DNA of 39,742 bases, taken from contig JAUMVO010000015.1 in assembly GCA_030530095.1 (NCBI GenBank), positions 1 to 39,742 of the forward strand, in the 5' to 3' direction. The DNA is from Clostridiaceae bacterium (GTDB taxonomy: Bacteria; Bacillota; Clostridia; Oscillospirales; Acutalibacteraceae). This document shows positions 4,568 through 39,742 of the stretch, one piece after another; position 1 is the stretch's first letter; each line of letters starts with the position of its first letter. Under the pieces are notes generated by a model. The model was not told the origin of the DNA. It made no database searches and saw only the letters and a program-made list of their open reading frames with translations. A program made the translations under genes and the position numbers.

Positions 4568-5503
4568 ATGAAATACGTTTTTATTCTTAATTCTGCAGCC
4601 GGAAAGGGCAAGACAGCAAAGGAATTTATCCCGAAGGTTGAGGCTTATCTTGCCGCACATCCCGAGCTTGACGCCGAGCTGTATCTGACTAAATTCGGCG
4701 GAGACGCGAAACAGTATACCGAAAAGCTTGCCTACACGGGCGAGGACATTACGTTTTTCGCCTGCGGCGGCGACGGCACGCTCTGGGAGGTTATCAACGG
4801 CGCGTATAAATACAAAAATGCAAACGTCGGTATAATCCCGCTCGGCTCGGGCAACGATTTCGCGAGAATACTCGGCGACCGCGAGAAGCTTCAGGACATT
4901 GACGCTCAGGTCAACGGCACAATTACTCAGTTCGACTTGATTAAGGCGGGCGACAAGGTTGCCATCAGCCAGTGTTCCATGGGCTTTGATGCCGAGGTCT
5001 GCGCGGATCAGGCAAATATGAAAAAGATACCCGGCGTCAACGGCGAGTTCGCATATACGGTTGCTCTGTTTCACTGCATGATGCGCCGCTTCGGCGGTGA
5101 CTTCACCGTAAAGGTTGACGACAAGGTTATCTATGAGGGCAAGACGATTTTTGCCCTTTGCGCAAATTCACGCTGGTACGGCGGCGGCTATATGGGCGCG
5201 CCCAAGGCGATACTTGACGACGGCCTTCTTGACTGCATACTTGTACGCAAGGAATTCGGAAGAATCAAGCTTGCGACACTTGTCAACGAATACAAGCGCG
5301 GCGAGCATCTTTCATGGCCCTACACCCAGTTCGTAAGGGGCAAGAAGATGCAGATTATCTCGAAAAAGCCCGCTTCGGTCAACGTTGACGGCGAGTGTGA
5401 GACGGTTACCGAATCGACCTTTGAGGTGCTTGAAAAGGCAATCAATTTCGTGATTCCGACCACTTCGGACTACTTTGAGAAAAAGGCTGCAGGGGAGTAC
5501 TGA
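4568..5503 (+). CDS. Diacylglycerol kinase-family lipid kinase
   Basis: Member of the DagK/YegS/BmrU lipid kinase family, 311 residues from this start. The N-terminal catalytic domain contains NSAAGKG (about residues 8-14), the nucleotide-binding CGGDGTLWEVING (about 64-76) and PLGSGNDFAR (about 93-102). The C-terminal domain has the usual beta-rich sequence. The likely reaction is phosphorylation of diacylglycerol or a related lipid alcohol, the reverse of what a PAP2 enzyme does. An ATG also occurs at 4562, but AGGGGGA ends only 1 base before it, so the ATG at 4568 is better placed. It follows the methyltransferase by 12 bases and is followed 1 base later by the dehydrogenase. Confidence 0.85.
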   Translation: MKYVFILNSAAGKGKTAKEFIPKVEAYLAAHPELDAELYLTKFGGDAKQYTEKLAYTGEDITFFACGGDGTLWEVINGAYKYKNANVGIIPLGSGNDFARILGDREKLQDIDAQVNGTITQFDLIKAGDKVAISQCSMGFDAEVCADQANMKKIPGVNGEFAYTVALFHCMMRRFGGDFTVKVDDKVIYEGKTIFALCANSRWYGGGYMGAPKAILDDGLLDCILVRKEFGRIKLATLVNEYKRGEHLSWPYTQFVRGKKMQIISKKPASVNVDGECETVTESTFEVLEKAINFVIPTTSDYFEKKAAGEY

Positions 5504-30308: not shown

Positions 30309-30321
30309 GTATTAAACAATA

Positions 30322-30546
30322 AATGCGTTGACTGAGAGAGTAACATTCTCATAAGGTCTTGTCAGAGAGGAAGCGCCGTCGGCTGAAAGCCTTCCGACCG
30401 AAAGGAATGCGAAATGCACTCACGAGCATGCGGGGGGAAGCGAGTATCCCCGCACGGGCAGTTTCCGTTAAAGACTCTTAAGTTATAAAACGAAGTGGAA
30501 CCGCGATTATTCGCCTTCGAAGCCATCGGGCTTTGGAGGCGTTTTC
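30322..30546 (+). promoter_or_regulatory. T-box riboswitch, probably tRNA-Cys
   Basis: Leader RNA that reads through when uncharged tRNA binds. The T-box AAGTGGAACCGCG is at 30493-30505. The terminator stem CGCCTTCGAAGCC/GGCTTTGGAGGCG (30512-30541), with G-U pairs, is followed by TTTT. An upstream structured region has GGAATGCGAAATGCAC near 30404-30419; the probable specifier is UGC (30415-30417), which reads Cys and fits the genes it controls. An alternative UGC at 30408-30410 cannot be excluded by eye. Confidence 0.88.
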
Positions 30547-30562: not shown

Positions 30563-31213
30563 ATGATTAAACGGTTTAAGCAGGATATTCAGGCGGTAAA
30601 GGACAGAGACCCTGCCGCCAAATCGGGACTGGAAATAGCGTTGCTCTATCCCGGCTTTAAGGCGGTACGCATGCACCGCCGCGCATACTGGCTGTGGAAT
30701 CACGGCCTCAAGCTCTGGGCGCGCGCCGTTTCGCAGAGAGCCGCGCAAAAGACGGGTATTGAAATCCACCCCGCCGCAAAGATAGGCGAAAGGCTCTTTA
30801 TTGACCACGGTACGGGCGTTGTAATCGGTGAGACGACAGAGATAGGCGACGACGTTACGCTTTATCAGGGCGTTACCTTAGGCGGTACGGGCAAGGACGT
30901 CGGCAAGCGCCATCCTACGATAGGAAACAATGTTATGATAGGCGCGGGCGCGAAGGTGCTCGGTCCGTTTACCGTGGGCGACAATTCAAATATCGCCGCG
31001 GGTGCGGTAGTGCTTGAGGAAATTCCGCCCAACTGTACGGCGGTCGGTGTACCCGCGAGGGTTGTACGCTATAACGGCGAGAGAGTCGATATACTCGACC
31101 ACGTTCATATTCCCGACCCCGTTTCTCAGGAGCTTTGCAAGCTCAACGTCAGAATAGAACATCTTGAAAAGGAATTGGCACAGTATAAGGAGAAAGAAAA
31201 TGAGAGTTTATAA
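30563..31213 (+). CDS. cysE: Serine O-acetyltransferase
   Basis: First step of cysteine synthesis: acetyl-CoA + L-serine to O-acetylserine. 216 residues; the N-terminal helical part is short, and the C-terminal left-handed beta-helix of hexapeptide repeats runs through IGETTEIGDDVTLYQGVTL, IGNNVMIGAGAKVLGPFTVG and NIAAGAVVL. The catalytic Asp-His in FIDHGTGVVIGE and His in GKRHPTIG are present. ATG at 30563 has CGGAGGA about 5 bases upstream. It overlaps cysS by 14 bases. Confidence 0.94.
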   Translation: MIKRFKQDIQAVKDRDPAAKSGLEIALLYPGFKAVRMHRRAYWLWNHGLKLWARAVSQRAAQKTGIEIHPAAKIGERLFIDHGTGVVIGETTEIGDDVTLYQGVTLGGTGKDVGKRHPTIGNNVMIGAGAKVLGPFTVGDNSNIAAGAVVLEEIPPNCTAVGVPARVVRYNGERVDILDHVHIPDPVSQELCKLNVRIEHLEKELAQYKEKENESL

Positions 31214-32597
31214 TACGCTTACACGCACCAAGCAGGAGCTTAAAACAATCGACGAGGGCGAGGTGAAAATTTACGCCTGCGGCCCGACGGTATATAACTA
31301 TATTCATATCGGCAACGCGCGTCCGCTGTGCGTTTTTGACACGCTTCGCCGTTATCTTGAATACAGAGGCTACAAGGTAAAGTTCGTTCAGAATTTCACC
31401 GATATCGACGACAAGATTATAAAGAAGGCAATCGAAGAGAATTCGGACTATAAGACCGTTTCCGAAAAGTATATCGAGGAATTCTGGAAGGACGCAAAGG
31501 GGCTGAATTTCCGCGAGGCGACCGTTCATCCCAAGGCGACCGAGAACATTGACGAGATTATCCATATTATTGAAACGCTTGTTGAAAAGGGCTATGCGTA
31601 TCCCGTGGAAAACGGCGACGTATATTTCAGCCCCGCAAAATTCAATGAGTACGGCAAGCTTTCGCATCAGCCGCTCGAGGATTTGGAAGCGGGTGCGAGA
31701 ATAAATATCGGCGAGCTTAAGAAGGAGCCGATGGACTTCGCTCTCTGGAAGGGCGCCAAGCCCGGCGAGCCATATTGGGAGTCGCCGTGGGGCAAGGGCA
31801 GACCCGGCTGGCATATCGAGTGCTCGGCTATGGCGGGCAGATATCTCGGCAAGACCATCGACATTCACTGCGGCGGTCAGGACCTTATCTTCCCGCACCA
31901 CGAAAACGAAATTGCACAGTCCGAGTGCTGCAACGGCGTTCCGTTTGCAAACTACTGGATGCACAACGGCTATATCAACGTTGACAATGTAAAGATGTCG
32001 AAGTCGCTGGGTAACTTCTTCACCGTACGCGAGGTTGCCGAGAAATTCGGCTACGAGCCTATACGCTATCTGATGATTTCCTCGCAGTACAGAAGCCCGA
32101 TTAACTATTCAATCGATATTATCGAGCAGTGCAAGGCGGCGCTTGAGCGTCTTTATACCTGCCGCGACAATCTTGATTTCGCGCTTGAAAATGCGGGCGA
32201 CAGCGTTCCCGAAAATGCCGACGAAATCAAGGCTCAGCTTGACTCACGCCGTGAACAGTTTATAAAGGCGATGGATGACGACCTCAACACCGCAGACGGT
32301 ATTTCGGCGGTATTCGAGCTTGTCAAGGACATCAACGTAAACGTAATTAACTCAGGCTCCAAGGAGCTTGTTGAGTATGCCGCAAAGCTCTTTGACGAGC
32401 TTACAAACGTTCTCGGTCTTGTATATAACAGAGACAAGGGCTCGCTTGACAGTGAGATTGAAGCGCTTATTGAAGCACGCACCAAGGCGAGAGCCGAGAA
32501 GAACTGGGCAGAGGCCGACAGAATAAGAGACGAACTGAAGGCTCAGGGAATTGTGCTCGAGGACACCGCTCAGGGCGTCAAGTGGCACAGGGAATGA
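31200..32597 (+). CDS. cysS: Cysteinyl-tRNA synthetase
   Basis: Class I aminoacyl-tRNA synthetase, 465 residues. H36-I-G-N39 and KMSKS (265-269) form the ATP site. Zinc ligands come from cysteines and histidines in YACGPTVYNY, IECSAMAG and FPHHENEIAQSECC. The C-terminal DALR-like region is normal length. ATG at 31200 is within cysE, with AAGGAG 6-10 bases before it. The cysE–cysS pair under a Cys T-box makes both responsive to charged tRNA-Cys. No U-tract terminator follows: the first hairpin of a repeat array begins at the base after the stop codon. Confidence 0.96.
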   Translation: MRVYNTLTRTKQELKTIDEGEVKIYACGPTVYNYIHIGNARPLCVFDTLRRYLEYRGYKVKFVQNFTDIDDKIIKKAIEENSDYKTVSEKYIEEFWKDAKGLNFREATVHPKATENIDEIIHIIETLVEKGYAYPVENGDVYFSPAKFNEYGKLSHQPLEDLEAGARINIGELKKEPMDFALWKGAKPGEPYWESPWGKGRPGWHIECSAMAGRYLGKTIDIHCGGQDLIFPHHENEIAQSECCNGVPFANYWMHNGYINVDNVKMSKSLGNFFTVREVAEKFGYEPIRYLMISSQYRSPINYSIDIIEQCKAALERLYTCRDNLDFALENAGDSVPENADEIKAQLDSRREQFIKAMDDDLNTADGISAVFELVKDINVNVINSGSKELVEYAAKLFDELTNVLGLVYNRDKGSLDSEIEALIEARTKARAEKNWAEADRIRDELKAQGIVLEDTAQGVKWHRE

Positions 32598-32700
32598 CAA
32601 GGTCTGTGACCTTGCAGTGAAATTCTTGCTTCGCAAGAGTGAAATTGCCTTACGGCAGTGAAATCCGTCCTTTGGACGGGTGAAATTTGCTTTCAGCAAG
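32598..32700 (+). repeat. Hairpin array with GTGAAAT spacers, copy 1
   Basis: Five hairpins in a row with spacer AGTGAAAT(T) between them: CAAGGTC-TGT-GACCTTG (32598-32614), CTTGC-TTC-GCAAG (32625-32637), TGCC-TTAC-GGCA (32646-32657), CCGTCC-TTT-GGACGG (32665-32679) and TTGCT-TTC-AGCAA (32687-32699). The array begins immediately after the cysS stop. Compared with the array at 39632-39742, three of the five stems differ by paired changes that keep base pairing. Confidence 0.85.
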
Positions 32701-32830
32701 TTGTGGGCGGGCGCTGCCCGCACCCGATATAATTTCACTTACGGCGTATATCATACTCGTAGGGGCGATTCACGAATCGCCCGCATCCCACGGGACAGCG
32801 GTCCCGTTATTACGAGAATTTATGATTTGA
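32701..32830 (+). repeat. Further hairpins following the array
   Basis: GCGGGC-GCT-GCCCGC (32707-32721), then ATAATTTCAC, which is the inverse of the GTGAAATTAT spacer, then GGGCGATT/AATCGCCC with loop CACG (32763-32782) and ACGGGAC/GTCCCGT with loop AGCG (32790-32807). The GGGGCGATTC hairpin resembles repeats I recall from several unrelated bacterial genomes. Confidence 0.6.
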
Positions 32831-32910
32831 AAGAAGCAATTAACGGCGAAACCGATTTATAAAAATGTAATCCCGCAAAGCTCAAATGAATTGAACACAA
32901 TGCACAAAGC

Positions 32911-32943
32911 GCCTTGCGGCTTGAATCGCAACCTGAGGTTGCG
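32911..32943 (+). other. Two hairpins before the DUF975 gene
   Basis: GCC-TTGC-GGC (32911-32920) and CGCAACC-TGA-GGTTGCG (32927-32943), separated by TTGAAT and followed by TTAGAATT, just before the ribosome site at 32955. The style matches a decayed member of the hairpin arrays, with TTGAAT where intact arrays have GTGAAAT. Confidence 0.4.
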
Positions 32944-32967
32944 TTAGAATTTACAGGAGGTAAAAGT

Positions 32968-33888
32968 ATGAACCTTATAAACAGAATTGCAACCAAGCAA
33001 AACGCAAGAGCCTATATCGGCACCGATAACAGATGGCTTGTTATGTTCGCCACGATGCTGCCGCTTATGATTGTTTCGGGCAGCTTCGGCTCGGTCAACG
33101 TGGCCGGCGGAAATTACTCGGGTTACAGCGATTCAGCCGACAGCAGGGCAATGCTGTTTATTACTGTCGTTATCGCGGTATTTGCAATAATCAGCGCTGT
33201 ACTCAACATACTTCTGGTACCCTTTAACCTCAGTATTAACGGCTATTTTCTCAACCATGTCAGAGGATTTAATCCCCAGTGGAAATCGCCCTATGTCGAG
33301 GGCGCGAACCGCTATGCGAAGTATCTTGAGGTTGGCTTCACTACGGGACTTGTGATTTTCCTGTGGAGCTGTCTGTTCATCATTCCCGGTATTATCAAGG
33401 CTTACGCCTATTCGATGGTTCCGTATATCATCCACGACAACCCGAACCTTTCGGGCAGTGAGGCAAGGCGCATAAGCGACCTTATGACCAAGGGACACAA
33501 GGGCGAGCTGTTCGTCAAGGACATGAGCTTCATTCCGTGGTATCTGCTTATAGGCTGCACCTGCGGACTTGCAAGCTGGTATGTTTTCCCCTACGTCAAG
33601 ACCGTGGATGCCATGTACTACGAAGGCCTTAAGGATAACGCCGTAAGGTCGGGACTTGTTCCCGCAGGCACATTGGGCGTTGTTATCGAAACTCCCGCCG
33701 CACCGCAGAACAACAGCGGCTTTAACGCTTATCAGCCTTATTCCGCACCGCAGAACAATAACAGCGATTTCAGCGGCTATCAGCCCTATACTCCGCCCGT
33801 TAATCCCGAGCAAAAGAGCGAGGAGAGAACGATAATCTTAAACGGCGAGGAATACAAGCCGACGGACAGCGGCTTCAACAATCAGTAA
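32968..33888 (+). CDS. DUF975 integral membrane protein
   Basis: 306 residues. Family DUF975 of Firmicutes, function unknown. Visible: short N-terminal NRIATKQNARAYIGTDN, then four or five hydrophobic segments (about 20-45, 58-85, 125-150, 185-210). The family sequence PGIIKAYAYSMVPYIIHDNP is followed by SGSEARRISDLMTKGHKGEL. After the last membrane segment a soluble tail has Asn/Pro-rich near-repeats (FNAYQPY, FSGYQPY) and ends with EEYKPTD. ATG at 32968 with CAGGAGG 7 bases upstream. It stands alone between a repeat region and a T-box leader. Confidence 0.85.
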   Translation: MNLINRIATKQNARAYIGTDNRWLVMFATMLPLMIVSGSFGSVNVAGGNYSGYSDSADSRAMLFITVVIAVFAIISAVLNILLVPFNLSINGYFLNHVRGFNPQWKSPYVEGANRYAKYLEVGFTTGLVIFLWSCLFIIPGIIKAYAYSMVPYIIHDNPNLSGSEARRISDLMTKGHKGELFVKDMSFIPWYLLIGCTCGLASWYVFPYVKTVDAMYYEGLKDNAVRSGLVPAGTLGVVIETPAAPQNNSGFNAYQPYSAPQNNNSDFSGYQPYTPPVNPEQKSEERTIILNGEEYKPTDSGFNNQ

Positions 33889-33930
33889 AATCGTCAGAAT
33901 AAAAAATTCTGTATTTTTTCAAATTTTTTG

Positions 33931-33959
33931 TTGACAAATCATTTTTCAAGTGCTATTTT
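33931..33959 (+). promoter_or_regulatory. Promoter of the Trp T-box leader
   Basis: Perfect TTGACA (33931-33936) and TATTTT (33954-33959) with 17-base spacing, directly before the leader. Confidence 0.65.
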
Positions 33960-33969
33960 AGAAAAAACG

Positions 33970-34225
33970 AACAAACCTACGATTAAGAGTAGTAACCCTT
34001 TACGAAGCTCACAGAGAGCCGCTGGCAGTGGAAATGCGGCAGGGGAGTAATCGGTGAATGGACTTATGAGGGCGGCCGAAAGCGCAAGCGAGTAGTAACC
34101 GACGTGGCGTACACGTTACAGTACGGCTTATATGAAAGTATAATGCAGAGAGGGCGCGAAAGCGTCAACTTGGGTGGCACCGCAGGTATTAATTCCTGTC
34201 CCATTTATTTGGGACAGGATTTTTT
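33970..34225 (+). promoter_or_regulatory. T-box riboswitch, tRNA-Trp
   Basis: The T-box GGGTGGCACCGCAG (34172-34185) is followed by a perfect 10-bp terminator stem TCCTGTCCCA/TGGGACAGGA (34194-34219) and TTTTTT. The specifier in GGTGAATGGACT is UGG at 34059-34061, coding Trp. This fits the TrpB-type gene downstream. Expression should rise when charged tRNA-Trp is scarce. Confidence 0.92.
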
Positions 34226-34263
34226 AATGATTAAAAACAAAATTTGACAAGGAGGAAAAGACT

Positions 34264-35637
34264 ATGTCAGAAAACAAAATCCCTTACAAGATTTATCTTG
34301 AAGAAAGTGAGATGCCGAAGGCATGGTACAACGTACGTGCAGATATGAAGAACAAGCCCGCACCGTTGCTTAATCCCGGAACGCATCAGCCGATGACAGC
34401 CGAAGAGCTTGAAGGCGTGTTCTGTGCGGATCTCGTAGCTCAGGAGCTTGACAACGAAAACGCGTACATTGAAATTCCTCAGGAGATCAGAGATTTCTAT
34501 AAAATGTACAGACCTTCTCCGCTGGTAAGAGCATATTGCCTTGAAGAGAAGCTTCAGACTCCGGCTAAGATTTATTACAAGTTCGAGGGCAACAACACAT
34601 CCGGCTCGCACAAGCTCAATTCAGCCATCGCTCAGGCATACTACGCAAAGAAGCAGGGCCTTAAGGGCGTTACTACCGAAACGGGCGCAGGTCAGTGGGG
34701 TACGGCTCTTTCGATGGCATGCTCATACTTCGACCTCGACTGCAAGGTCTATATGGTTAAGGTTTCATACGAGCAGAAGCCGTTCAGACGCGAGGTTATG
34801 AAGGTTTACGGCGCAAGCGTAACTCCCTCTCCGTCGATGGAAACCGAAATCGGTAAGAAAATCAACGCCGAGCATCCCGGCACAACAGGCTCGCTGGGCT
34901 GCGCTATTTCCGAAGCTGTTGAGGTTGCCGTAAAGAATCCGGGTTACAGATACGTTCTCGGTTCGGTTCTCAATCAGGTGCTTCTTCATCAGTCGGTTAT
35001 CGGCCTTGAGACAAAGGCTGCCCTCGACAAGTACGGCATCAAGGCTGATATGATTATCGGCTGTGCGGGCGGCGGCTCGAATCTCGGCGGACTTATTTCC
35101 CCGTTCATGGGCGAAAAGCTCAGGGGCGAAGCGGATTACGAGATTATCGCCGTTGAGCCGGCTTCATGCCCGAGCTTCACACGCGGCGTTTACGCATACG
35201 ATTTCTGTGACACGGGTATGGTTTGCCCGCTTGCCAAGATGTACACACTCGGCTGCGACTTCATTCCGTCGGCAAACCACGCAGGCGGTCTTCGCTATCA
35301 CGGCATGAGCCCCGTGCTTTCCCAGCTTTATGATGACGGTCTTATGAAGGCTGTTTCCGTTGAGCAGACGAAGGTATTCGAGGCTGCCGAGCAGTTCGCG
35401 AGAGTTGAGGGCATCCTTCCCGCTCCCGAAAGCTCGCACGCTATCAGAGTTGCCATTGATGAGGCTCTCAAGTGCAAGGAAACCGGCGAGGAAAAGACTA
35501 TCGTATTCGGACTTACGGGTACGGGCTACTTCGATATGGTTGCCTACGAGAAGTTCCACAACGGCGAGATGACGGATTACATCCCGACCGACGAGGAGCT
35601 TGCAAAGTACAGAGCAAAGCTTCCAAAGATGGACTGA
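34264..35637 (+). CDS. trpB: TrpB2-type pyridoxal-phosphate enzyme (tryptophan synthase beta-like)
   Basis: Makes tryptophan from indole and serine. 457 residues, about 50 longer than classical TrpB and typical of the TrpB2 group. PLP lysine K117 in SGSHKLNSA; ETGAGQWGTALSMA and CAGGGSNLGG (PLP phosphate loop) follow, then GLTGTGYFDM near the end. AGGAGG lies 8 bases before the ATG. There is no trpA, trpC or other trp gene in the window; TrpB2 enzymes do not need TrpA contact and can salvage free indole. Regulation by the Trp T-box supports a tryptophan role rather than a serine deaminase one. Confidence 0.92.
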   Translation: MSENKIPYKIYLEESEMPKAWYNVRADMKNKPAPLLNPGTHQPMTAEELEGVFCADLVAQELDNENAYIEIPQEIRDFYKMYRPSPLVRAYCLEEKLQTPAKIYYKFEGNNTSGSHKLNSAIAQAYYAKKQGLKGVTTETGAGQWGTALSMACSYFDLDCKVYMVKVSYEQKPFRREVMKVYGASVTPSPSMETEIGKKINAEHPGTTGSLGCAISEAVEVAVKNPGYRYVLGSVLNQVLLHQSVIGLETKAALDKYGIKADMIIGCAGGGSNLGGLISPFMGEKLRGEADYEIIAVEPASCPSFTRGVYAYDFCDTGMVCPLAKMYTLGCDFIPSANHAGGLRYHGMSPVLSQLYDDGLMKAVSVEQTKVFEAAEQFARVEGILPAPESSHAIRVAIDEALKCKETGEEKTIVFGLTGTGYFDMVAYEKFHNGEMTDYIPTDEELAKYRAKLPKMD

Positions 35638-35648
35638 TAATCAAATAT

Positions 35649-35680
35649 AAACAGACCGACAGCTGTCGGTCTGTTTTTTT
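35649..35680 (+). terminator. Terminator of trpB2
   Basis: Long perfect palindrome AACAGACCGACAG/CTGTCGGTCTGTT (35649-35674) then TTTTTT. Confidence 0.93.
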
Positions 35681-35723
35681 ATCACTTCAATTCTTAAAAA
35701 ATTGTTATAAATGTCCGTTATCG

Positions 35724-35753
35724 GTTGAATAAAAAGTTATAAAGTGATAAAAT
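35724..35753 (+). promoter_or_regulatory. Possible promoter of the MMPL operon
   Basis: TTGAAT (35724-35729) and TAAAAT (35748-35753) with an 18-base spacer. Other AT-rich -10 candidates are nearby, so the choice is weak. Confidence 0.35.
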
Positions 35754-35803
35754 ACTTAGGTTAAGTAATTAATTATTCTTTATATATATTTTCGGAGGAA
35801 GAA

Positions 35804-37954
35804 ATGAGAAAACTGGCTTTATGGGAGGCGCGGCACCCGATAATCGTAATTGCGATAGCGGTTGCGCTGCTCATCCCGTCGATAATAGGCTTCTTCTGCA
35901 CGAGGGTTAACTACGATATGATGTCGTATCTGCCCGATACGTTTGAGTCCGTGCAGGGCGAGCAGGTGCTCGACGAGGTCTTCAACAATGCGGGTATTTC
36001 GATTATCGTCTTTGACAACTACGACCCGAAGTACGTCGACGCCGTCAGAACCGAGATTGAGAAGATTGAGGGTGTTACCTCTGCAACGTGGATAAGCACC
36101 GTTGCCGACATATCAATTCCGCAGGACATTATGCCCGAAGCCGTAACCGATATTTTCTACTCAAAAGACGGCACGAGTACAATGATGCTCGTTCAGTATA
36201 AGTACAAGGGCTCATCAAACGAAACGCTTGCTACCATCAAGAATATCAAGAAGCTGCTTGACAAAAACACCTTTATAAGCGGATTTTCCGCCATCATCGA
36301 GGACACAAAGGAGCTGACTGAAACTCAGGCTCCGCTCTATATTCTTGTCGCCGTCACGCTCGCGCTTATCGCGCTTTGCGTTATGATGGAGTCTTGGGCG
36401 CTGCCGCCCGTAATACTGTCGTCGCTGGGTATGGCGATAATTTACAATATGGGTTCCAACGTTTTCCGGGGTGAGATTTCCTTTATCACCCAGGCGGTTG
36501 CGGCCATACTGCAGCTGGGTATCACGATGGACTACTCGGTATTCCTCATGGACAGATACAAGGAGGAAAAGCACAAATATGCCGACCGCACCGAGGCTAT
36601 GGCTTCGGCGGTTACGAAGTCCTTTGTGGCGCTTATGGGAAGCTCGCTGACGACCGTTTTCGGCTTCCTTGCGCTGTGCTTCATGACGCTTCGCTTAGGC
36701 TTCGATATAGGCTTCGTTATGGCGAAGGGCGTTGTGTTCGGCATACTCGTCGTAGTATTTGTACTGCCCGAGATTATATTGCTTTTCGAAAAATATATAG
36801 ACAAGTATCATCACAAAAACTTTCTGCCGAAGTTTGACCGATTGAATGACTTTATCGTAAAGCACAAGGCGATATTTGCGATACTGTTTCTGGTGCTTCT
36901 CGCACCCTCTTATCTGATTCAGAGTAAGCTTGAGGTCTATTACGACTTCTCGCAGGCGCTTCCCTCGAAGCTCGTTTCTATTCAGGGACTTCAGCGACTT
37001 AAAACAGATTTCGGTATGGCTTCCACTCAGTTCATAGTAGTTGACGATACTCTGCCGTCGGGCACGCTTATCGAAATGGAGGAGGAGCTTAAAAAGGTTG
37101 ACGGCGTAACCTCGGTTATCGCGTACAACAGCTTCATCGGCCCCGCATTCCCCGACGATATAATCCCCGACGCGATACTCGATATCTGTAAAAAAGACGG
37201 CAAGCAGTTGATGATGGTCAATACCTACCTCGAGACCGCTTCGCCCGAACTCAACGACCACGTCGATAAGCTCATAGCCGTTGTCAAATCCTACGACCCG
37301 AACGCCATTGTAACGGGCGAGGGCGCGATAACCAAGGATATGATTACTACCGCCGACCGCGACTTCAAGGTCACGGCGCTGATGTCGATAGGCGCGATAT
37401 TCATACTGCTGCTGTTCGCGTTCAAATCAATCAGTATTCCCGTTCTGCTGATAGCGTCTATTGAAATCGCAATCTGGGTTAATCTAGCACTGGCAAAGAT
37501 AATGGGCTCGGACGTAAACTTCATAGCGCCGACGGTCATTAACTGCGTTCAGCTGGGTGCGACGGTCGACTACGCGGTGCTTCTGACGACAAGATTCCGC
37601 GAGGAGCTTCACCACGGTCTTGACCGCAAGACGGCGATACTAAGGGCGGCTAACAACGCCGAGCAGTCGATATTCCAGAGCGCGGTCGTATTCTTTATGG
37701 CGACGTTCGGAGTTTACCTCGTCTGCAATATCAATATGATTAAGGGTATGTGCGCGCTGCTTGCGCGCGGCGCGATAATCAGCGCACTTTCAATTATATT
37801 CTTCTTAACGCCGCTTCTGTATATCTTTGAGGGCGTTATTGACAAAACCACTTTAGGCTGGCACAAGGGCAAGAATCTTGCCGACGCGGAATTCGCCGAC
37901 GTCACGCCCGAAGCCGAAACCGAAAATGCACAGGAGGATGAGAACAATGCTTAA
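35804..37954 (+). CDS. MMPL/RND-family exporter
   Basis: Proton-driven exporter of the MMPL/RND superfamily, 716 residues. Twelve membrane segments as two copies of a 1+5 layout, with extracellular loops of about 130 residues each. Conserved proton-relay sequences in each half: GITMDYSVFLMDRYKEE (D243) and GATVDYAVLLTTRFREE (D589). The C-terminal tail is acidic. In Gram-positives such proteins export lipids, wall precursors or antimicrobials; the cargo here is unknown. GGAGG precedes the ATG by 7 bases. It overlaps the lipoprotein gene by 8 bases. Confidence 0.92.
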   Translation: MRKLALWEARHPIIVIAIAVALLIPSIIGFFCTRVNYDMMSYLPDTFESVQGEQVLDEVFNNAGISIIVFDNYDPKYVDAVRTEIEKIEGVTSATWISTVADISIPQDIMPEAVTDIFYSKDGTSTMMLVQYKYKGSSNETLATIKNIKKLLDKNTFISGFSAIIEDTKELTETQAPLYILVAVTLALIALCVMMESWALPPVILSSLGMAIIYNMGSNVFRGEISFITQAVAAILQLGITMDYSVFLMDRYKEEKHKYADRTEAMASAVTKSFVALMGSSLTTVFGFLALCFMTLRLGFDIGFVMAKGVVFGILVVVFVLPEIILLFEKYIDKYHHKNFLPKFDRLNDFIVKHKAIFAILFLVLLAPSYLIQSKLEVYYDFSQALPSKLVSIQGLQRLKTDFGMASTQFIVVDDTLPSGTLIEMEEELKKVDGVTSVIAYNSFIGPAFPDDIIPDAILDICKKDGKQLMMVNTYLETASPELNDHVDKLIAVVKSYDPNAIVTGEGAITKDMITTADRDFKVTALMSIGAIFILLLFAFKSISIPVLLIASIEIAIWVNLALAKIMGSDVNFIAPTVINCVQLGATVDYAVLLTTRFREELHHGLDRKTAILRAANNAEQSIFQSAVVFFMATFGVYLVCNINMIKGMCALLARGAIISALSIIFFLTPLLYIFEGVIDKTTLGWHKGKNLADAEFADVTPEAETENAQEDENNA

Positions 37955-39566
37955 AGGAAAAACAGTTAAAATAATAAGCCTGCTCACGGCATTGTCGCTT
38001 ATACTGCTTTGTATGGCGGGCTGCGGCAAGAAGCTGCCGACCGACAATCAGATTATACTCGACAAGCTCGGCGAGAAGAAATATGTTCAGACCGAGTACG
38101 AAACAATAGTTGAAAATACCGACCTTCGCAAGCAGGAGACGGTTTACGTAAATATCGGACCCGACGGAAGCGTCAACAAGGTTACCGTAACCGACTGGCT
38201 TCACGTCAACACCCCGCAGGTAAGGGTAGTCGACACGAGTACGCTTACCGATATCAGAAACGTAAAGTCCCTTGCCGAACCTATCGTTCAGGATCAGTAC
38301 CTGCTTTGGGACATGGACACAACAGATCTTTATTACAGCGGTATCAGCGATAAAGAGCCGCCGATTAAGTTCGAGATAAAGTACTTTATGGACGGCGAGG
38401 AAGTACCCTGCGATCAGATGGCGGGGGAGACCGGCCGCGTTACCATTCAGATTAAGGCTATCAATACCCTTACCGCTAACGTCAAGTCCGACGGCAAGGA
38501 GTACACCATCAGCTGCCCGATGCTTATGGTCGGCGGTATGATACTCTCCGAGGAGAAGTTCACCAATATCGCCGTTGAGAACGGCACGGCGCTCGGCGAC
38601 GGCACGAAGCAGATAGTATTCTTCGCGGGTGTTCCCGGTATGGATCAGAGCTTAGGTCTTTCGTCGCTCAACCTTTCGCTTCTCAACCCTCAGCTTTTAA
38701 GCGACACCTACACAATCACTGCCGACGTTGTGGACTTTGCGCTGGGCAATATGATGTTCGCGGTTCTTCCGTTCTCATCAATAGGCTCGATAGGCAACGG
38801 CGAACTTCCCGAAACCGTTGACGAGGTCAAGGGAATACTGACCGATATTCAGTCGCTTCAGACCGCCCTCAACGGCCTCGACCTTGAAAAAATAATAGGA
38901 CTTCTCTACGGCGATTCCGACAAGATAGGCGATATGCTCGACGCGGTCAGCGACGCCGTAAAGCTTTATAACGAGAACGAAAAGATGCTTAAGGTTATCG
39001 ACAAGTATATGACCGAGGATAACCTTGCAGCGCTCGACAAACTTGTCGATGACATCAATCAGACCGATATCGACGCGATTTCGCGTACGCTTTCCGATCC
39101 CGCTATGCAGCGGCTTATCGGTATGCTGCCCGCGCTCTCAGAGAGCCTTACGGGACTTAAGGGACTTGCGGACGACCTGAACAAGGTTATGCCCGTATTC
39201 CAGGCGATGAACGAGGATATGCAGGACCCAGAAATTCAGAAGTCGCTTGAAAATCTGCCGCAGACGCTCACAAAGCTTAAGGAAATACTCGCCGTAATTG
39301 ACGACAACCGCGAGCTTCTCGACGCGCTCGGCGCGTTTGCTGGCGGCGACAATGACGCTCAGCTTCAGGCGGTTATGGACACGGCGAAGAAGTATCTCAA
39401 CACCGATGAGCTTTCCGAGGCGCAGATGCAGACGCTTGCGGGCAGAACGAGAGAGTGGCTGAGCTTCGGTATGAGCTATTCGATTTTCACTCAGAAGATT
39501 GAGGGCAATACCTCAACAGTCCTCTTCACCTATAAGAGCGACTCAATCAAAAAGGCCGCTGAATAA
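37947..39566 (+). CDS. Coiled-coil lipoprotein partnered with MMPL exporter
   Basis: 539 residues. The signal sequence ends in a lipobox MAGC with Cys26, so it is probably lipid-anchored outside the membrane. Residues about 30-260 are a beta-rich region of unknown fold. Residues 280-500 are long amphipathic helices with many Leu/Asp/Ile heptads (LNGLDLEKIIGLLYGDSDKI, then DDINQTDIDAI), giving a likely coiled coil. No C-terminal membrane segment. It resembles YhgE-type proteins that accompany MMPL exporters, but I do not recognise a named family. ATG at 37947 has AGGAGGA 8 bases upstream. The overlap with the exporter gene implies coupled translation and a shared function. Confidence 0.8.
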   Translation: MLKGKTVKIISLLTALSLILLCMAGCGKKLPTDNQIILDKLGEKKYVQTEYETIVENTDLRKQETVYVNIGPDGSVNKVTVTDWLHVNTPQVRVVDTSTLTDIRNVKSLAEPIVQDQYLLWDMDTTDLYYSGISDKEPPIKFEIKYFMDGEEVPCDQMAGETGRVTIQIKAINTLTANVKSDGKEYTISCPMLMVGGMILSEEKFTNIAVENGTALGDGTKQIVFFAGVPGMDQSLGLSSLNLSLLNPQLLSDTYTITADVVDFALGNMMFAVLPFSSIGSIGNGELPETVDEVKGILTDIQSLQTALNGLDLEKIIGLLYGDSDKIGDMLDAVSDAVKLYNENEKMLKVIDKYMTEDNLAALDKLVDDINQTDIDAISRTLSDPAMQRLIGMLPALSESLTGLKGLADDLNKVMPVFQAMNEDMQDPEIQKSLENLPQTLTKLKEILAVIDDNRELLDALGAFAGGDNDAQLQAVMDTAKKYLNTDELSEAQMQTLAGRTREWLSFGMSYSIFTQKIEGNTSTVLFTYKSDSIKKAAE

Positions 39567-39580
39567 ACACACAAAGCATA

Positions 39581-39607
39581 ACGGCGCACTGTAATGTGCG
39601 CTGTTTT
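39581..39607 (+). terminator. Terminator of the MMPL operon
   Basis: Stem ACGGCGCAC/GTGCGCTGT (one G-U pair) with loop TGTAAT and TTTTT. Confidence 0.85.
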
Positions 39608-39616
39608 TGTTATTAC

Positions 39617-39742
39617 ATAAATCGGAGTTTATCGAGGTCTACGACCTCGAAGTGAAATTCTTGCTTCGCAAGAGTGAAATTGCCTTACGGCAGTGAAATT
39701 CGTCCTGCGGACGAGTGAAATTTGCCTTCGGCAAGTTGTGGG
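39617..39742 (+). repeat. Hairpin array with GTGAAAT spacers, copy 2 (runs to the window edge)
   Basis: Begins with ATAAA-TCGGAG-TTTAT (39617-39632), the cap hairpin seen in the 206-bp family. Then TCGAGGTC-TAC-GACCTCGA (39632-39650), CTTGC-TTC-GCAAG (39660-39672), TGCC-TTAC-GGCA (39681-39692), TCGTCC-TGC-GGACGA (39700-39714) and TTGCC-TTC-GGCAA (39722-39734), each separated by AGTGAAAT. It ends in GTTGTGGG, the sequence at the same place after the array at 32598, so it probably continues outside the window. Confidence 0.87.

Follow-up and report, generated by a model that had tools for sequence, protein, structure and literature searches.

REP sequences and BIMEs are dispersed palindromes near 3′ ends, and REP systems are defined by a Y1 (RAYT) transposase. 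Gut-1 (RF01706) is classed by Rfam as Gene; sRNA. It was listed in 2010 and, in the available text of that paper, was read as a noncoding RNA to which no function was assigned (PMC2864571). S23 proteins, matched by PF05635 ('23S rRNA intervening sequence'), are described without a known function in the available part of a second source, in which the IVS of Coxiella carries tandem heptameric repeats, variable in number between strains, right upstream of its ORF (PMC4990558). PF05635 is reported to resemble the DGR accessory protein Avd in sequence and structure (PMC10053308, available portion).

The window, which is the whole 39,742-nt stretch of DNA that was analyzed, contains the same five hairpins in identical order at 32598-32699 and 39633-39734, as an earlier note on this DNA had claimed. 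All features are on the + strand. In copy 1, hairpin 1 (7 bp, 32598..32614) starts right behind the stop codon of the ORF at 31164-32597 and is followed by spacer GTGAAAT (32617..32623), hairpin 2 (6 bp, 32624..32638), GTGAAAT (32639..32645), hairpin 3 (4 bp, 32646..32657), GTGAAAT (32658..32664), hairpin 4 (6 bp, 32665..32679), GTGAAAT (32680..32686) and hairpin 5 (5 bp, 32687..32699). Copy 2 is composed of hairpin 1 (39633..39649), GTGAAAT (39652..39658), hairpin 2 (39659..39673), GTGAAAT (39674..39680), hairpin 3 (39681..39692), GTGAAAT (39693..39699), hairpin 4 (39700..39714), GTGAAAT (39715..39721) and hairpin 5 (39722..39734), the last of which lies 8 nt before the contig end at 39742, where the window also ends. 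An ungapped repeat of 108 nt with 91% identity spans both arrays. The family A leader AATCGGAGTTTAT (39620..39632) stands ahead of copy 2 and, slightly altered, precedes many further copies of the window repeat in genome G000.

Both arrays scored above the gathering threshold of the Rfam RF01706 covariance model (50 bits), copy 1 with 60.2 bits (32615..32691) and copy 2 with 57.1 bits (39650..39726); the statement that they belong to no named repeat family was therefore wrong. The expectation that relatives would often carry such arrays was borne out, with arrays found in 19 of 40 genomes, G000 among them. Gut-1 matches ranged from 0 to 36 per genome, with 23 in G000, 35 in G027, 29 in G035 and 9 in G039. 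Most of the 80 record titles listed refer to uncultured Clostridia of animal-gut samples.

Alignment of 32598-32700 with 39633-39735 gave 11 differences in 103 positions, of which 6 fall in stems, 4 in loops and 1 in a linker. The 6 stem changes make up 3 whole compensated pairs (A-T/G-C, C-G/T-A and T-A/C-G), with no one-sided stem change between the two arrays and with hairpins 2 and 3 identical, in agreement with the earlier note. By a simple count, the chance of 6 stem changes falling on 3 whole pairs of 28 with pairing kept is ∼4e-6. The paired changes and constant spacers recur in further copies: across 14 copies from genomes G000 and G023, 3 of which form a diverged subgroup, pairing is intact in 99.0% of 392 stem cells, and 15 two-sided changes stand against 4 one-sided changes (all G-U) and 4 broken cells. 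One-sided changes are thus not as frequent as paired ones.

Comparison with relatives places Gut-1 in an inverted array, of which it makes up the left half. The full array has four GTGAAAT-like words with hairpins between them, followed by four reverse-complementary words, often with a terminator hairpin ahead. Read in order, a full element consists of an RNA-gene 3′ end (or that of a protein gene), hp0 (a terminator-like hairpin), 4 words with hairpins, a repeat of the 3′ arm of the first hairpin and 4 complementary words with hairpins, and in a minority of cases an S23 (PF05635) gene ends the element. At 60 loci picked for Gut-1 matches, a grammar parser set to 3+3 words and a score of ≥30 found 60 arrays in 579 kb and 0 in one dinucleotide shuffle; at its loosest setting it found 84 arrays, and 4 in the shuffle. 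The arms of hp1 pair within their own element in 99 of 101 cases compared with a mean of 35.7 when swapped; 63 distinct hp1 sequences occur among the 101, so the elements are partly related by descent and p-values overstate their independence.

The words of the two halves co-vary. Among 70 elements, word position 5 and right position 3 are A-T in 58 and T-A in 12, without exception, and word position 1 pairs with its right-hand partner as G-C in 40, A-T in 19 and G-T in 9, the other 2 being A-C. An alternative long-range helix, P1, pairs in 66/70 elements compared with a mean of 18.2 with centres swapped. In 70/70 elements the P1 duplex has greater stability than hairpin 1, a comparison biased in favor of P1 by its longer stretch. 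By eye, the minimum-energy folds of most of 15 folded elements did not show four word pairs nested in a strict ladder.

A tRNA or tmRNA gene lies at most 120 nt upstream of 61/85 arrays, compared with 4/206 control words; these 61 arrays are not insertions in 23S rRNA. Two of 17 pattern matches that gave no parsed array are also located behind a tRNA. In the Gut-1-selected set, a left neighbour that codes for protein is oriented toward the element in 27 cases and away from it in 19, so the 3′-end rule is loose outside tRNA genes. At the tRNA-Gln locus of genus g1, arrays with different words occupy the same place in G017 and G013, and no comparable array occupies it in G043, where the parser gave one weak call further right; the three genomes gave no clean empty site.

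Presence at orthologous sites is lineage-specific at the tmRNA locus and at G000:C43. At the tmRNA locus, G000 and G023 are 98.4% identical up to the CCA, after which a 547-nt element is present in G000 and missing from G023; at that end G023 carries other sequence instead of an empty site. At G000:C43 the element truncates a conserved gene, and the parser found no array in 11/11 fetched orthologues of that gene. No clear target-site duplication was seen by eye.

A PF05635 ORF was found to the right of 15 of 70 arrays (a set apart from the 85), and 55 of the 70 had no S23 gene within 250 nt. Two example proteins scored 90.2 and 83.2 bits against PF05635 (cut-off 33.8). Starting from S23 genes of relatives, a strict test found an inverted 7-mer array upstream of 24/45, compared with 3/900 shuffles and 1/28 other ORFs; many of these arrays use words other than GTGAAAT-like ones. 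The strict test failed at the remaining 21/45 loci, several of which show degenerate repeats by eye. A tRNA or tmRNA lies within 500 nt in 26/49 S23 loci of relatives, and other S23 genes of the phylum sit in 23S rRNA and RNase P RNA. Over 40 genomes, arrays and S23 co-occur (p = 5e-4), although a PF05635 match was absent from 3 of 19 array-bearing genomes and a Gut-1 match from 6 of 22 genomes with PF05635. A loose sigma-70-like pattern was counted by hand upstream of the S23 ORF in 14/26 distinct loci, a count without chance control; where the pattern is real, the array lies outside the S23 mRNA.

On balance we favor, with modest confidence, the explanation that Gut-1 is the left half of the inverted spacer-hairpin array of small IVS/S23-type mobile elements and that the window arrays are copies of it. 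What ties the window copies to the full element is their Gut-1 score together with their spacer and hairpin grammar, and nothing else. Near 32598 and 39633 no S23 ORF, right half, P1 or RNA-gene site was found except for one right-type spacer, AATTTCAC (32731..32738), behind copy 1, which could conceivably be a remnant of a right half (the contig stops at 39742); the window copies do not have the makeup of an IVS/S23 mobile element and are derivatives at most. Judged from sequence, they are probably protein-less half-array derivatives that spread as 3′-of-gene repeats. An S23 ring would recognise the word array, either in RNA or in single-stranded DNA; pairing between words, together with P1, would set the fold on which the ring acts during mobility, and hp0 would restore termination of transcription after the host RNA gene. 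A more specific form of this explanation is put forward tentatively: Gut-1 may be half of a cis-acting array of a widespread tRNA-end mobile family, in which a pentameric S23/Avd-like ring would read the repeated 7-nt word between hairpins, each element having its own word, with co-varying halves and conserved left-right pairing.

The location behind tRNA genes and terminators, the many copies without S23 and the paired changes are also in keeping with domesticated 3′-end DNA elements (terminator back-up, insulator, gyrase or nucleoid site, BIME-like) kept by the host behind highly transcribed genes. This is fairly unlikely given the lineage-specific presence, the wide range of Gut-1 matches between genomes and the copy that truncates a gene. 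Alternatively, the paired changes could arise without selection, through template switching (quasipalindrome correction) and slippage that homogenise palindromes and inverted words, the arrays being unstable selfish DNA. One array does differ by a whole word-hairpin unit between G000 and G023, and the words of one element, inverted ones included, tend to be alike; the hairpins of one element nevertheless stay unlike each other, and P1 and the left-right word pairing reach over tens to >100 nt. Homogenisation as the source of the pairing is unlikely on these grounds, and it is compatible with the IVS/S23-element explanation. An independent small RNA, with the S23 and tRNA neighbourhood incidental, would match the Rfam type, the reading in the available text of PMC2864571 and the strong folding of 14 of 70 elements (MFE z-scores −3.7 to −7.7). 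It is made quite unlikely by the enrichment next to tRNA/tmRNA genes, the S23 association and the frequent position of hp0 immediately upstream.

The earlier note had proposed REP-like 3′ elements. Placement at 3′ ends was supported, with a T-run directly before 8/15 window-type copies and the left ORF reading toward the copy in 10/14 with a known left ORF, and the arrays are palindromic and dispersed; movement by a Y1 (RAYT) transposase is very improbable. PF01797 is absent from the array-bearing but incomplete genomes G000 (0 matches, 95.8% complete), G027, G035 and G039, and over 40 genomes it has no association with arrays (p = 1), on which basis this mobiliser was rejected. A reverse transcriptase acting in trans was also discarded, PF00078 having no association with arrays over 40 genomes; one encoded elsewhere, or missed in incomplete genomes, could still act. 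Phage origin was dismissed: 14 viral contigs match the pattern, of which 3 (L255, L256 and L259) have a convincing array. One of these three also has a tRNA-Leu gene.

The Gut-1 motif itself was already known; no report of a link between Gut-1/RF01706, S23 and tRNA ends was found in the literature covered, preprints and most subscription papers being outside its scope. Through this link Gut-1 and S23, neither with an assigned function in the available texts (PMC2864571, PMC4990558), each gain a testable partner. The link fits the discovery of Gut-1 in gut metagenomes and introduces a type of element that makes use of tRNA ends. It is unusual for a repeated word to change from element to element while left-right pairing is kept, and this constraint can be tested directly. 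If the tentative form of the explanation, in which the ring reads the word, is true, the orphan S23 proteins of 23S rRNA IVS elements would gain both a substrate and a part in mobility.

Like Rfam RF01706, the window copies have the spacer words, three hairpins and the start CAAUGAAAU. The Rfam model spans 77 nt, all within the left half; neither it nor the available text of PMC2864571 includes a right half, the alternative P1 helix, a tRNA site or an S23 gene. As in the 23S rRNA IVS, a minority of the arrays of relatives are accompanied by an S23/PF05635 ORF, and as in the Coxiella IVS, short repeats precede it; here, in contrast, the elements mostly occupy tRNA or tmRNA gene 3′ ends, and hairpins separate the repeats, which are inverted and preceded by a terminator-like hairpin. 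Unlike DGRs with Avd, G027, G035 and G039 have arrays and S23 with no PF00078 reverse transcriptase found. The arrays resemble REP/BIME sequences as dispersed palindromes near 3′ ends and differ from REP/RAYT systems in having no Y1 transposase association and in spacer words that vary by element with left-right complementarity kept.

The window contains two arrays, at 32598-32699 and 39633-39734, each with five hairpins linked by GTGAAAT words. They are copies of one repeat, with 91% identity over 108 nt; of the 11 differences, six lie in stems and form three intact pairs, while loops account for four and a linker for one, confirming the paired substitutions described in the earlier note. Both arrays passed the gathering score (50 bits) of Rfam RF01706 (Gut-1), contrary to the suggestion that the repeat belongs to no named family. 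The 2010 source paper of Gut-1 (PMC2864571) describes it as a noncoding RNA, listed as 'human gut only'. The window's genome (G000) contained 23 Gut-1 matches, some overlapping, 11 above the cut-off and several close to contig ends, the majority being this same one-directional five-hairpin repeat (family A). Matches were present in 19 of the 40 genomes searched, G000 counted in, in line with the expectation that such repeats are common in relatives.

Pairing was followed in 14 copies of the window repeat from G000 and a related genome, G023 (392 stem cells, 99.0% paired). Stem changes were two-sided in 15 cells and one-sided (to G-U) in 4, and pairing was broken in 4; one-sided changes were not as frequent as paired ones, as the note's refuting case would have required. 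Pairs with double changes numbered 8 vs 2.4 in shuffles. The number of further pair types lends no support, since 475 of 500 shuffles reached the observed value. Copy 1 follows immediately on the upstream ORF's stop codon; 8 of 15 family A copies examined directly follow a T-run, and the left ORF, where known, was transcribed toward the copy in 10 of 14. Two T-box leaders (RF00230, 96.1 and 96 bits; 30319-30521 and 33970-34206) flank the first-array region. A further palindrome, GTAGGGGCGATTCACGAATCGCCC, lies 3' of copy 1 (32759-32782) and, slightly altered, 3' of many other family A copies, making these mosaic repeats.

Gut-1 matches in relatives frequently formed convergent pairs. A parser for spacer words and hairpins was run on 60 loci picked for Gut-1 matches (579 kb), yielding 60 arrays with at least three words on each side and a score of at least 30 vs none in one dinucleotide shuffle (84 vs 4 at the loosest setting). 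Typical arrays hold four left and four complementary right words within ∼170 nt. The element runs from a terminator-like hairpin (hp0) through S0, hairpin 1, S1, hairpin 2, S2, hairpin 3, S3 and hairpin 4 to a'' (which repeats hairpin 1's 3' arm), R1, hairpin 5, R2, hairpin 6, R3, hairpin 7 and R4. The Gut-1 model begins at S0 and spans the first three hairpins of the array. One-directional arrays of 4-8 units with a different last hairpin were seen near protein genes in the relative G027 (L077, L088, L089), and another array type, with a AATTCATG-like spacer, adjoins a full element at L107 (∼5090-5210).

Loci for covariation analysis were chosen by terminator run plus two words only, in order to avoid selection by hairpins. 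Among 141 pattern hits, 101 had S0-S3 by words alone and 70 had at least three right words. Hairpins were scored by formation of the four outer pairs, with arms swapped between elements as control; pairs formed in 99/101 for hairpin 1 (swapped mean 35.7), 59/101 for hairpin 2 (10.3) and 72/101 for hairpin 3 (14.8). Two right hairpins formed in 26/70 (swapped 9.1) and 63/70 (20.1). Across these 70 elements, the pair made by word position 5 with the right-hand word was A-T in 58 and T-A in 12 with 0 exceptions, that made by position 1 was G-C (40), A-T (19), G-T (9) or A-C (2), and position 2 was invariant. In 66/70 elements, a complement of 8 or more bases to the 5' arm of hairpin 1 plus S0 was present in the element's own centre, vs 18.2 with centres swapped. 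The resulting long-range helix (P1), alternative to hairpin 1, was the more stable by duplex energy in 70/70, its stretch being longer. Because the elements are related (63 distinct hairpin 1 sequences in 101), none of these counts represents independent events.

The arrays are enriched behind tRNA and tmRNA genes. Among the matches listed there were 127 pattern hits, spread over 117 public stretches; 97 of them carried an array with at least three left words and 17 carried none. Among the same matches, the site test was limited to the 85 of these 97 with at least 150 nt upstream; a tRNA or tmRNA gene lay within 120 nt upstream in 61, representing 14 tRNA amino-acid classes and tmRNA, vs 4/206 for the remaining TTTTTTCA words of these loci and 2/17 for array-less hits. 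In a Gut-1-selected set (n = 72), the left neighbour was a tRNA or tmRNA in 22/68; the other 46 were transcribed toward (27) or away from (19) the element. In G027, arrays were parsed at 7/24 tRNA transcript ends, one weak (30/40 tRNA loci covered), and their hp0 hairpins were by eye more alike one another than terminators of other tRNA genes. Hairpin units resembling the tmRNA 3' end were also seen by eye after tmRNA (L330, L331, L338-L341, L343, L345, L347) in several genus members, some in tandem, most ending in CTCCACCA; these are perhaps a second element at the same site.

Arrays are also linked to genes for S23 (PF05635, the '23S rRNA intervening sequence' protein of IVS elements). In 70 arrays with at least three words per side and 400 nt on the right (a different set from the covariation elements), an S23 ORF lay within 250 nt to the right in 15; examples scored 90.2 and 83.2 bits (PF05635) and 101 bits (TIGR02436). 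In the reverse direction, starting from S23, PF05635 was found in 22/40 genomes, with 57 hits among the matches listed, 49 of which were examined. In 24 of the 45 with at least 200 nt upstream, an exact 7-mer formed an inverted array ahead of S23, vs 3/900 shuffles and 1/28 other ORFs, and a tRNA or tmRNA lay within 500 nt upstream in 26/49. Words vary among S23 elements (e.g. GCTAAAT at the G000 tmRNA, GTGATGT, GTGAAGT, GTATGTA, ACATCGT), and some S23 loci carry TTCTCTC- or TTCATTA-type repeats without hairpins. A loose sigma-70-like pattern, hand-counted with no chance control, precedes the ORF in 14/26 distinct loci, an indication that in some cases the array is not the S23 leader. By eye, tRNA-end elements at L361, L362, L374-L376, L384, L433-L436, L438 and L445, and one at tmRNA (L342), have inverted words abutting without hairpins between; an S23 gene was found at all except L342. 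At L087 (4684-5318) hairpin arrays lie on either side of an S23 gene.

The elements are lineage-specific in their presence. At the tmRNA locus, the 1851 nt that end at the CCA are 98.4% identical in G000 and G023, after which G000 has 547 nt (hp0, array, S23) vs 298 nt of other sequence in G023; identity then returns (90%, 500 nt) in the next gene, presumably CCA-adding-enzyme-like. At G000:C43, a gene with matches in 38/39 genus genomes is truncated at its end by an element, and the parser found no array at 11/11 orthologues examined. In one array, G000 and G023 differ by one complete word-hairpin unit. Over 40 genomes, arrays and S23 were both present in 16, arrays only in 3, S23 only in 6 and neither in 15 (hand count; p = 5e-4); neither reverse transcriptase nor Y1 transposase co-occurred with arrays (p = 1 for each). 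Three IMG/VR contigs classed as viral (L255, L256, L259) also have arrays, L259 with a tRNA-Leu gene; these may be prophage or host carry-over.

The window copies resemble the left half of the element in word, grammar and Gut-1 score, and have no right half, P1, S23 or tRNA neighbour. We read them as protein-less derivatives of the full element, though they may instead be of independent origin. For the full element, hp0 would restore transcription termination, the repeated word would be read by an S23 ring, and left-right word pairing together with P1 could provide alternative folds used in mobility, the working form of the array being RNA or single-stranded DNA.

In the wider phylum PF05635 was found in 35/199 genomes. 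Among loci examined there, some S23 genes lie within 23S rRNA (L398, L403, L410) and inside the RNase P RNA gene (L405 and L407, 1229-2003), where the RF00010 match spans 775 nt vs a 367-position model; no inverted hairpin array was seen by eye upstream of S23 in the stretches examined outside the order. One solved structure related by sequence to S23 was found (2rld). According to PMC4990558, Xanthomonas S23 is a homopentamer and the Coxiella IVS has heptameric repeats ahead of its S23 ORF.
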